Notes under the pieces: model-generated
What the model saw: only the letters and a program-made list of their open reading frames with translations
Told to the model about the DNA's origin: nothing
Databases searched by the model: none
Virus record (IMG/VR): IMGVR_UViG_3300044833_000050
Location: 1-26,311 of that record
DNA: 26,311 nt
Origin: a virus
Reading direction: 5' to 3' (one strand)
Part shown: positions 2,010 to 19,294 of the stretch, one piece after another
Layout of the letters: every line of letters begins with the position of its first letter
Position numbering within the stretch: the first letter of the stretch is position 1
Position numbers and translations under genes: made by a program

Positions 2010-3308
2010 TTAGACTCGTTCCTCAAACTGCAATCGCTTCGTGTTGAACCGGACTGGGATCTCGCCCACACTCCCGTTGCGGTTTTTCGCCACAATTAAC
2101 ACCTGATCGTTCGGCACCAATTCACCCTTCTCGTCTACTGGCATGTAGGGCATCACAATCACATGGCTATGGGCTTCCACATCGCCAGATTCCTTGAGTT
2201 GAATCATGGTCGGTCGGTCGTTGATGTTCTTCGGCCGCGCCAGTTGCGAAAGTTGTACGACTGCCACGTTCTCGGACTTCGCTAACTGCCTCAAAGCATT
2301 AGAGACTGCCGCTACTCGATCCCTCGTTTCGCGTCCTGGGGCCTGCACAATTTGTAAGTAATCCACCACGATCAACTCGACCTTGTGCCGACGAATAAAT
2401 AACCGTGCGCTCGCTAGTATCTGGTCGATCTTCAGGCTGCCGCGGTCGTCGATCCAGATTGGCAATTTCGCTACTTCCGCGATTGATTCAACCAGTTCCT
2501 TATCGCGGTCCCGCGCAATGTACTTCGGGTTTCTGATTAAACTCGCTGAGAATTTAGAGTTGGATGCCAGCAGCCTTTTGCCTAATTCTATGTCGCTCAT
2601 TTCAATCGAGAAAGCCATCACTGGGACGCTTTCGAGTGCGTTGGACATTAAGACTTGAACGCCGGTTGCGGTTTTCCCCTTCCCTGGTAGCGCTCCAATC
2701 GTCCAGAGTTCGCCTTTTCGTATGCCGCCGGTCATCACATCGAGTCCCGTAAGTCCGGTCGTGTACCCAACTAACCCTTCGTGATTGCGCTGGTTTTCAA
2801 CTTCTACTCCAACGTCTTGCATGATTGGATGCACAAACCTAGCCGCCCGCTTTCCACTGTCCGCCTCGATCGCTAGTAAAGCCTCCTGAATCTGCCGCGC
2901 ACAATCGTCGGTCTGCGTTCTGCCATCTTCCGCTGCTGCCTGTAAAGCTACGGCCGCTGCGTGCATCTTCCGGCGCCGCGATTTATCGAGAATCGTTTTC
3001 GCGTAGCCCTCAATGTTTGCCACTCGCGCCATACCCATCGCGATGTTTGTGCTGAGGTTGCTCACTGTCGCCATTCCACCGACTGACTCGAGTTGGCCGG
3101 CAGCCGTTAAAGCCTTACAAACACTGAAATCATCCACCGCTTCGCCAGCGTTCGCCAACTCAATCATTGCGCGGTAGATCCGCCGATGCGCGTCGAGCGA
3201 GAAATCTTCTGGCGATAACAACGGCGTTACCCGAAACAGCGCGTCTTTATCGAGAATCGCGCAGCCCAACACTGATTGCTCCGTTTCCACACTTGAGAGT
3301 GCGCTCAC
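2010..3308 (-). CDS. dnaB: Replicative DNA helicase, DnaB type
   Basis: Hexameric 5'-3' helicase that unwinds DNA at the fork. The N-terminal domain (about 1-150) begins SVETEQSVLGC as in DnaB. The RecA-like ATPase has Walker A GALPGKGKT (205-213), Walker B ELIVVDY with Asp316, an H4-like VVQLSQL (350-356) and an arginine finger in AKNRNGSVG (Arg410). Length 432 aa is normal. The start is GTG, overlapping the upstream initiator gene's stop by 4 nt (GTGA). It should work with the primase at 11446-13119 and the probable initiator/loader just upstream. Confidence 0.95.
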   Translation of the reverse strand: MSALSSVETEQSVLGCAILDKDALFRVTPLLSPEDFSLDAHRRIYRAMIELANAGEAVDDFSVCKALTAAGQLESVGGMATVSNLSTNIAMGMARVANIEGYAKTILDKSRRRKMHAAAVALQAAAEDGRTQTDDCARQIQEALLAIEADSGKRAARFVHPIMQDVGVEVENQRNHEGLVGYTTGLTGLDVMTGGIRKGELWTIGALPGKGKTATGVQVLMSNALESVPVMAFSIEMSDIELGKRLLASNSKFSASLIRNPKYIARDRDKELVESIAEVAKLPIWIDDRGSLKIDQILASARLFIRRHKVELIVVDYLQIVQAPGRETRDRVAAVSNALRQLAKSENVAVVQLSQLARPKNINDRPTMIQLKESGDVEAHSHVIVMPYMPVDEKGELVPNDQVLIVAKNRNGSVGEIPVRFNTKRLQFEERV

Positions 3309-4072
3309 TTGGTTCCAGCACCCTCAGCTACCATCTCCGCGTGTTCCTTCCACACCCGCTCCATTGTGGACATACCGCTTTGGCGGGGAATTACTTTGGC
3401 CGGTTCTTCGCCGGGCTTAACTTCAACCCACTCCGCCGGGTCGGTCAGATACTTGGCTTCCCGATACCACCTGTCGGCGCTCGGGATGAATTGACGGCGG
3501 TGAGCGGGCCACTTCTTAACAGCTTCCGCGAACGCTTTGGTTCCCTTTAAGACTTCGTTTCCGTCAACAAGAAGAGCTCCGAGAATTGCTACCTCATGGG
3601 CGTTGGGTAGAGATTTTCCCTTGAGTGTCCTATTTCCGGGATAAGTGTGACCGATGGCGTCTACGAGTTTTGATTTGTCTTCCTGAGAATCAGGAACGAG
3701 CGGGCCCTCTGCCTCTGTCTCTTCTCTGTCTCTGTCTCTGTCTCTAGACGACTGTGTTGCTAGCGAGTTGCTAGCGTTCAACGACTCTTGCGCTAGCGAC
3801 ACAAGGAACCCTTTGCTTATCAACGGGTTAATGCCGTCTACTACCTCATCCAGTGGTAGTCTCAACCGTAAAGCCAAGTCTTTATTTGATAGCGTGATGC
3901 TTCCATCTGGCGATTCAGACGCTAGCAGCCAGAGATAAGGTGCTAGCGCCCTGCTAGCAATCGGCAACTTAAGGAAGTCGAGGTCATCCAGTGTGGAGCG
4001 GTGCAGTTTTATCCACGGCGGATTCCTCTTTTTGTAGTGCTGGTACATCTTCCAATTCTTCACCTTAAACAC
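3305..4072 (-). CDS. Probable phage replication initiator / helicase loader
   Basis: 255 aa with an N-terminal winged-helix-like region (about 15-95) like those of phage O-type and DnaD-like replication proteins: WIKLHRSTLDDLDFLKL, then a strand-helix pattern with ITLSNKDLALRLRLPLDEV. A low-complexity linker RDRDRDRE follows, then a C-terminal region rich in Trp and basic residues. GTG start with GAGGTGG upstream; it overlaps the upstream zinc-finger gene by 8 bp and dnaB by 4 bp. Position before dnaB and an iteron-like array inside the gene (3759-3958) support a role in origin recognition. The exact family is not certain. Confidence 0.65.
   Translation of the reverse strand: MFKVKNWKMYQHYKKRNPPWIKLHRSTLDDLDFLKLPIASRALAPYLWLLASESPDGSITLSNKDLALRLRLPLDEVVDGINPLISKGFLVSLAQESLNASNSLATQSSRDRDRDREETEAEGPLVPDSQEDKSKLVDAIGHTYPGNRTLKGKSLPNAHEVAILGALLVDGNEVLKGTKAFAEAVKKWPAHRRQFIPSADRWYREAKYLTDPAEWVEVKPGEEPAKVIPRQSGMSTMERVWKEHAEMVAEGAGTK
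3723..3745. repeat. (TCTCTG)n microsatellite in the initiator gene
   Basis: Three tandem TCTCTG units plus TCTCT (3723-3745), preceded by a degenerate copy from 3713. On the coding (minus) strand it encodes alternating Arg-Asp, forming a linker between the two halves of the initiator. It ends 13 bp before the first GCTAGC box, so this pyrimidine-rich tract abuts the candidate origin. Slipped-strand length change in multiples of six would keep the frame. Confidence 0.8.
3759..3958. repeat. GCTAGC iteron-like array, candidate replication origin
   Basis: GCTAGC occurs six times: 3759, 3770, 3792, 3921, 3942 and 3953 (start positions). Start-to-start spacings are 11, 22, 129, 21 and 11 bp, so two triplets lie as near mirror images, with near-helical phasing inside each triplet. 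Flanks agree with TTGCTAGCG when the boxes are oriented. The boxes are read in two different codon phases (GCT AGC and xxG CTA GCx), so they are not a by-product of a peptide repeat. The array lies inside the probable initiator gene, as in lambda-type origins. Origin function is inferred. Confidence 0.65.
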
Positions 4073-18259: not shown

Positions 18260-19294
18260 CTATTGGGCCATCGCATTTAACAGTGGGGCATCATCGGTGA
18301 TTCGGCGTTCTGCCATTGCCGCGTACTCAGGGTTGAGTTCGATGCCAACGAAGTTCCGGTTGTAGCGCAGGGCTACTACTCCGGTCGTTCCAGCACCGCA
18401 GAACGGATCGAGCACCGTGTCACCTTCGCGCGATCCGCACACGCAGCATATTTCAGCAACCCTCTCAGGCATGACAGCGTAGTGATTGTCGCCGTACTGC
18501 GCTGGCGAAATCCACCATACAGAGCGGAGATTAGCTCCGCTAGCTTGCTGTTCTGACTTCTCCATCGCGTCCCATCGGTCGTTAAACCCATCGTGGCGTC
18601 GTGAGTGGCCGCGCTGCTTGTCCGTGCTTCTAGCGACTGCCTTCATTGGTCCGTTGCTTTTCTCGCCTCCATTGGCACGCAGTGATCCAGTTTGTGATTC
18701 GACATCTTGAGACAGTCTCGTTTCAGAACTTGGCTGCGCGGGAGTACGGGCCGCGTCCGTGTCATAGAAATAGTCGGTGCTCTTTGTCAACTGGAATACG
18801 TATTCGTGAGAAATTGTCGAGCGATCGCGCACTGATTCTGGCATACAGTTCGGCTTTGCCCACACGTTACACTGCCGCAAGTACCAACCATCGGCGCGCA
18901 GAGCGAACGCCACCATCCACGGGATGCCGACGAGATCCTTGTCCTTATACCCGACCGGAGGTTTGCGCCAGCCCTTCGACTCCTTGGCGTGGCTCCATGC
19001 GTCGGATCGTTGCTCCATGAAGCTACCTCCGCCGCCATTCCCGCCAGAAGCCCACTTGTCCCCCAGGTTCAACCACAAACTGCCGTCCGCCGAAAGGACG
19101 CGCCTTACATCTCGGAACACTTCAACCATTCGCGAGCAATACTCGTCAGGAGTTCTCTCTAGGCCGATCTGCTCGGGGATGCCGTAATCCCTCTGTCTCC
19201 AGTACGGCGGGGACGTGACTACGCACTGCACGGATTCATCAGGCAACTGCCGTAAGCCCTCCAGGACATCAGCGTTGATGATTCTGAAGGTCAT
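18260..19294 (-). CDS. Beta-class DNA amino-methyltransferase (N4-cytosine or N6-adenine)
   Basis: 344 aa. Catalytic motif IV TSPPYW (27-32) precedes the AdoMet-binding motif I DPFCGAGTTG (296-305), the order of the beta class. An FVGIELNPEY segment follows as in motif II. SPPY is more usual in N4-cytosine enzymes but also occurs in N6-adenine ones. The region about 195-245 is low-complexity and likely part of target recognition. ATG start overlaps the DUF4406 gene's stop by 4 bp. It is the third methyltransferase of the window, again without a restriction enzyme. Confidence 0.9.
   Translation of the reverse strand: MTFRIINADVLEGLRQLPDESVQCVVTSPPYWRQRDYGIPEQIGLERTPDEYCSRMVEVFRDVRRVLSADGSLWLNLGDKWASGGNGGGGSFMEQRSDAWSHAKESKGWRKPPVGYKDKDLVGIPWMVAFALRADGWYLRQCNVWAKPNCMPESVRDRSTISHEYVFQLTKSTDYFYDTDAARTPAQPSSETRLSQDVESQTGSLRANGGEKSNGPMKAVARSTDKQRGHSRRHDGFNDRWDAMEKSEQQASGANLRSVWWISPAQYGDNHYAVMPERVAEICCVCGSREGDTVLDPFCGAGTTGVVALRYNRNFVGIELNPEYAAMAERRITDDAPLLNAMAQ

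Follow-up and report, generated by a model that had tools for sequence, protein, structure and literature searches.

Palindromic boxes on an 11-bp lattice inside a phage initiator gene: a candidate replication origin of lambda-like position and new layout

Several phages place their origin of replication inside or beside the gene for the protein that recognizes it. For example, the origin boxes of SPP1 (G38P/oriL) and of the lactococcal replisome organizers (Rep2009, TP901-1 Rep) lie inside or beside the replisome-organizer gene, as at the locus described here, although their sequences and spacing differ from those of the present array. In bacterial oriC, short tandem repeats (the DnaA-trio, or initiator single-strand repeats) stand beside double-strand boxes; the AGAGAC repeats of the present locus, which also lie beside boxes, could likewise serve as a single-strand binding track, but their unit is a hexamer and that of the DnaA-trio is the TAG trio. 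The lambda origin lies in the middle of gene O; it has imperfect inverted repeats of 19 bp as iterons and needs an AT-rich tract for opening (PMC7466680). Lambda O/ori-lambda and the origins of Stx phages share with this locus the inverted-repeat iterons inside the initiator gene, the adjoining tract and the loader gene next door (PMC7466680). In lambda, the initiator binds the iterons and the strands open at the tract (PMC7466680), whereas here we infer both steps. Lambda has four and the Stx phages six 19-bp imperfect repeats, while the boxes reported here are perfect palindromes of 6–8 bp that follow a lattice of 11 bp and form two clusters some 130 bp from each other, with a purine-rich tract in place of the AT-rich tract of lambda. 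Phage origins inside initiator genes are hence known already; what is new is the layout, of which no description was found in the open-access literature, most subscription papers lying outside it.

The window, meaning the whole stretch of DNA analysed, is a 26-kb IMG/VR virus fragment of 26,311 nt. Its replication initiator gene (3305..4072, minus strand, GTG start) encodes 255 aa with a predicted N-terminal HTH domain, a low-complexity linker and a C-terminal domain. The product matches phrog_26426 ‘replication protein’ over residues 4–121, the N-terminal domain (E=1.2e-25), and phrog_186 ‘DnaD-like helicase loader’ (E=3e-7), and has no match in Pfam. By profile it thus belongs to the same protein family as the DnaD-like loaders and phage initiators, whose entries come without a described origin array. 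In the AlphaFold2 model, residues ~20–100 have a pLDDT of 87–98 and the linker (residues 112–129) falls below 50; no PDB fold matches the protein at E≤0.001, no solved structure being close, and the best viral structure match is gp04 of phiPLPE. The next gene downstream encodes a DnaB-like replicative helicase (2010..3308, minus strand; PF03796, E=1.5e-54). A DnaG-like primase of the same phage (11446..13119, plus strand; PF08275, PF01807) provides context outside the array, and an integrase and a terminase are also encoded, the latter 18 kb from the array. Judged by sequence motifs only, two further ORFs resemble methyltransferases, of the C5-cytosine type at 482–1330 and of the DNA-methylase type at 18260–19294.

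Six copies of GCTAGC lie at 3759, 3770, 3792, 3921, 3942 and 3953, with spacings of 11, 22, 129, 21 and 11 bp, and the seventh and last copy of the window is at 18539. These positions, spacings and counts agree with the original prediction, which had put the chance expectation at about 0.05 copies per 200 bp; dinucleotide shuffles give ~0.04 per 200 bp, or 5.55 per window. No hexamer of the window other than GCTAGC and CGCTAG, which overlaps it, reaches six copies within 200 bp, and 3759–3958 is the densest hexamer cluster. In the orientation of the gene (minus strand), the upstream cluster (3921..3958, codons 39–51) holds three boxes spaced 11 and 21 bp. The downstream cluster (3759..3797) holds three boxes spaced 22 and 11 bp, which span four 11-bp slots, the second being empty, as a GCTAGC at that place would bring a TAG into frame. 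The window boxes use codon phases 0 and 2, the two phases noted in the prediction, and the third cannot occur, since it would put a TAG in frame. In the downstream lattice, the two slots barred by a stop (289 and 322 in gene coordinates) both read AGTCGT, which is not a one-base variant of GCTAGC. The variable 123-bp ‘centre’ between the clusters is coding sequence for the predicted HTH domain. Adjacent to the downstream cluster is a purine-rich tandem repeat (3705..3745, minus strand), (AGAGAC)n on the coding strand and TCTCTG on the other, which encodes an RDRDRD linker.

The whole protein found no relatives among viral contigs, but a search with its N-terminal 92 residues recovered 80 loci, to which seven phage records were added; plasmid records contained no relative of the initiator. 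All 104 aligned relatives match phrog_26426, 48 of them phrog_186 and 21 phrog_678 ‘replication initiation O-like’, and none matches the Pfam model of the lambda O N-terminus (Phage_rep_O) at E≤0.01. The relatives span 35–66% GC. Most carry two to six GCTAGC at matching positions, e.g., 117, 128, 149, 279 and 290 from the start codon, so the boxes, whose loss from relatives was to count against the prediction, are kept in many of them. The boxes are perfect palindromes, often GCTAGC within TGCTAGCA, with modal spacings of 11 and 21 bp. In representatives with at least two boxes, 123 GCTAGC fall in the initiator gene versus 12 in the flanks (5.9 versus 0.065 per kb), and in phiPLPE all five copies of the 47-kb genome are inside this gene. 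Avoidance of CTAG was considered as a cause of the rarity of the box and rejected, with 1720 CTAG observed against 1639 expected.

Shuffling synonymous codons within each gene of 37 representatives gave an expectation of 21 boxes against the 130 observed, and this null is conservative because codon bias is kept. Likewise, Leu-Ala is written with GCTAGC in 60 of 90 cases within the clusters, in 7 of 40 in the remainder of these genes and in 13 of 558 in other ORFs; for Ala-Ser, the corresponding figures are 53/82, 9/24 and 16/439. Together with the matching positions in relatives, the codon shuffles and the dipeptide control bear out the earlier claim of selection on DNA and not on peptide, and from these sequence comparisons the array is judged to be selected at the DNA level within coding sequence.

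The arrangement of the boxes had been described as two mirror-image triplets, a special design. This part of the prediction did not hold, and mirror symmetry was rejected as a function. The positions of the boxes follow a lattice of 11 bp, which puts one box on each turn of the helix, all facing the same side of the DNA. As 11 mod 3 = 2, the codon phase changes from each slot to the next and comes round again every third slot; in one of the three phases GCTAGC reads GC-TAG-C, an in-frame stop, which bars one slot in three to it. Across the genes, 274 GCTAGC are in phase 0 and 365 in phase 2, and an 11/11 run of GCTAGC occurs in none of 137 genes; both observations are logical necessities of an open gene. 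In relatives, the upstream cluster has the 11/21 spacing, and about four boxes at 11-bp intervals make up the downstream cluster, those in the stop-forbidden slot being degenerate. The closed slot, at +22 counted from the first box of the downstream pair, holds a hexamer with one mismatch to GCTAGC in 32 of 50 representatives, versus 1% at positions off the lattice, the recurring ones being GCAAGC (12), GCTTGC (11), GCTATC (7) and GCGAGC (2). The gene copes with a closed slot by skipping it, by shifting 1 bp, or by filling it with GCAAGC, GCTTGC or GCTATC. The closed slot therefore gives rise to the 11/22 and 21/11 spacings of the two clusters, and hence to the ‘mirror’ look.

Relatives without GCTAGC have GATATC at 11-bp spacing instead. 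GATATC hides no stop, which permits uninterrupted runs of three perfect boxes, and such runs are found. When 124 N-terminal domains were placed in a tree, the genes with GATATC fell into one clade with a support of 100/99 (the bootstrap being rough), so the box was switched once; the spacing of 11 bp was kept through this switch, and so was the distance to the tract. The link between box and protein is accordingly a single event and not a statistical correlation, and their pairing is suggested by linkage in cis and by this one switch. Four GATATC members recovered by the protein search (L010, L011, L012 and L083) show an 11/11 run and a fifth, L009, has one exact pair only; the rate of 88 of 89 with 11/11 runs in the GATATC set is biased, the set having been selected by the pattern. 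L009 (PQ492659, Limnohabitans phage DC33) is filed under Inoviridae though it is 39 kb long with a replication gene of tailed-phage type, and its taxonomy may be an error.

The TCTCTG tract which the prediction had placed beside the left triplet is present and is moreover a conserved part of the element. In both clades, (AGAGAC)n lies directly downstream of the second cluster, and in each consensus its start is 41 bp past the first of the downstream boxes. Of 124 representatives, 57 contain the repeat AGAGACAGAGAC; of these, 54 read it as ETETET and three, including the window, as RDRDRD; it is therefore the DNA that is conserved rather than the peptide. The number of AGAGAC copies varies, up to 12. 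The tract encodes the low-confidence part of the AlphaFold2 model, a probable disordered linker, a position in which the sequence can presumably vary without harm. An AT-rich unwinding tract beside the boxes was not found, the AT content of the purine-rich tract being 46% for the window and 54% for the family, unlike classical unwinding elements.

The element can be retrieved by its DNA pattern alone. When viral contigs were scanned for GCTAGC-N5-GCTAGC-N15-GCTAGC (11/21 bp) without protein information, at least 119 stretches were found, and 79 of 80 among the matches listed are inside the initiator gene family. The sole outsider among these 80 (locus L172, 11962–12163) is a tandem GCTAGC array with SSMLASADTTA repeats in a non-initiator gene. 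A control pattern with the first spacing changed from 11 to 13 had four matches in the whole viral collection. Similarly, the 11/11 pattern of GATATC occurs in at least 120 stretches, and 71 of 80 among the matches listed are in the initiator gene family. Bacterial and archaeal genomes, 257 Gb in all, contained 21 matches to the GCTAGC triplet, eight of them in the initiator gene, including Bradyrhizobium, Micavibrio and Phycisphaerae loci; the other 13 are simple tandem arrays, lone matches near the number due to chance in 257 Gb, and one array in L347.

The array is probably a phage replication origin inside its own initiator gene, and a lambda-like intragenic iteron origin of new layout is the best reading of these sequences. 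Its features in common with lambda-type origins are repeated boxes (candidate initiator boxes) confined to the initiator gene in relatives, inverted repeats at helical spacing, and a helicase or loader gene downstream. The downstream gene is dnaB in the window and in Cr-LKS3, encodes a DnaC-like loader in phiPLPE and locus L223, and a P-like one in L213 and, weakly, L117; this evidence consists of named annotations and PHROG matches only, and several other sampled neighbours are without assigned function. By analogy with lambda, dimers of the N-terminal HTH domain of the initiator would bind the boxes, and the bound boxes would form a wrapped complex like the lambda O-some. The strands would then separate at or beside the AGAGAC tract, and the exposed strand would take up the DnaB helicase, in several relatives possibly through the DnaC-like or P-like loader. 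Hundreds of mostly uncultured phages carry what looks like a replication start site in the gene of its probable recognition protein. Of the original proposal of a candidate phage origin, it stands that an origin is the best explanation and strongly supported by comparison. GC skew was tried as origin evidence and rejected, as it is confounded by gene direction and inconsistent among genomes: the minima of the window (4312) and of phiV208 (~2 kb from the array) each fall where the genes change direction, and no clear minimum is seen at the array in two other genomes.

The same boxes could be imagined as an operator array, bound by the initiator or another phage regulator that represses or times transcription of the replication operon, with no replication start. 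Cooperative HTH regulators typically have palindromic boxes spaced by one turn, and the PHROG and Pfam matches are compatible with a regulator. Nevertheless, the boxes of the relatives are at codons 39–105 of the initiator gene and not at a promoter, they are absent from the rest of the phiPLPE genome and rare outside the gene in general, the AGAGAC tract at its fixed distance has no obvious operator role, and the downstream genes, where they can be named, are helicases and loaders. An operator is therefore unlikely. A different cis-acting site, for packaging, recombination or plasmid-prophage partition, that happens by chance to lie in the initiator gene is very unlikely. It would suit the tandem repeats of the tract, and iteron arrays are known to serve partition and copy control too, but the terminase of the window is far from the array, the matches found from DNA alone stay in the initiator gene in both scans, and a similar box pair recurs in other families of replication initiators.

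There is hardly any room left for the remaining explanation, that the DNA similarity is a by-product of peptide conservation (Ala-Ser and Leu-Ala in an amphipathic helix, and an acidic linker). The upstream cluster does encode a conserved ASxALAPxLWLLAS, with W48, L49, A51 and S52 nearly invariant. The same dipeptides elsewhere, however, seldom use the box codons, the boxes vanish under codon shuffling, the tract persists in either of two reading frames, whose peptides are unrelated, and GATATC encodes other residues on the same lattice, by which this explanation is largely refuted.

Taking the array as an origin, its interest lies in the fact that for uncultured phages the origin is hardly ever known. 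One DNA pattern points, directly in contigs, to a candidate origin, to the protein likely to bind it and to the helicase context, and it works for viruses of different phyla and of 35–66% GC. The stop-codon rule is a case in which a DNA-binding code and a protein code negotiate the same bases; it predicts which slots carry imperfect boxes, and unbroken runs for boxes without a hidden stop. The natural switch from GCTAGC to GATATC makes initiator specificity testable through domain swaps.

The layout may recur in initiator families that are unrelated by profile. CTTGCAAG, the box of locus L086, occurs as pairs 11 bp apart in 46 loci, one of them in the initiator family and many in other genes before low-complexity tracts. 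Of ten such proteins tested, five have PHROG matches to replication initiators or DnaD-like loaders, and purine-asymmetric tracts flank 9 of 44 sites versus 1.5% of control positions. Whether palindromic boxes on an 11-bp lattice with a tandem purine hexamer tract inside the initiator gene, the stops deciding the slots and the box being switchable, amount to a general origin code of tailed phages is an evenly balanced proposition. In L385, L387, L378, L363, L397 and others, the CTTGCAAG pairs immediately precede (QE)n, (DK)n or Glu/Lys-rich tracts. The 11-bp-spaced arrays of two further loci, their families assigned by eye, are of GCTAGC in a DUF1376-like, initiator-like gene of an Acidobacteria MAG (L347, ~2908–2950) and of GATATC in a DUF6291-like phage gene (L251, ~1200–1260).
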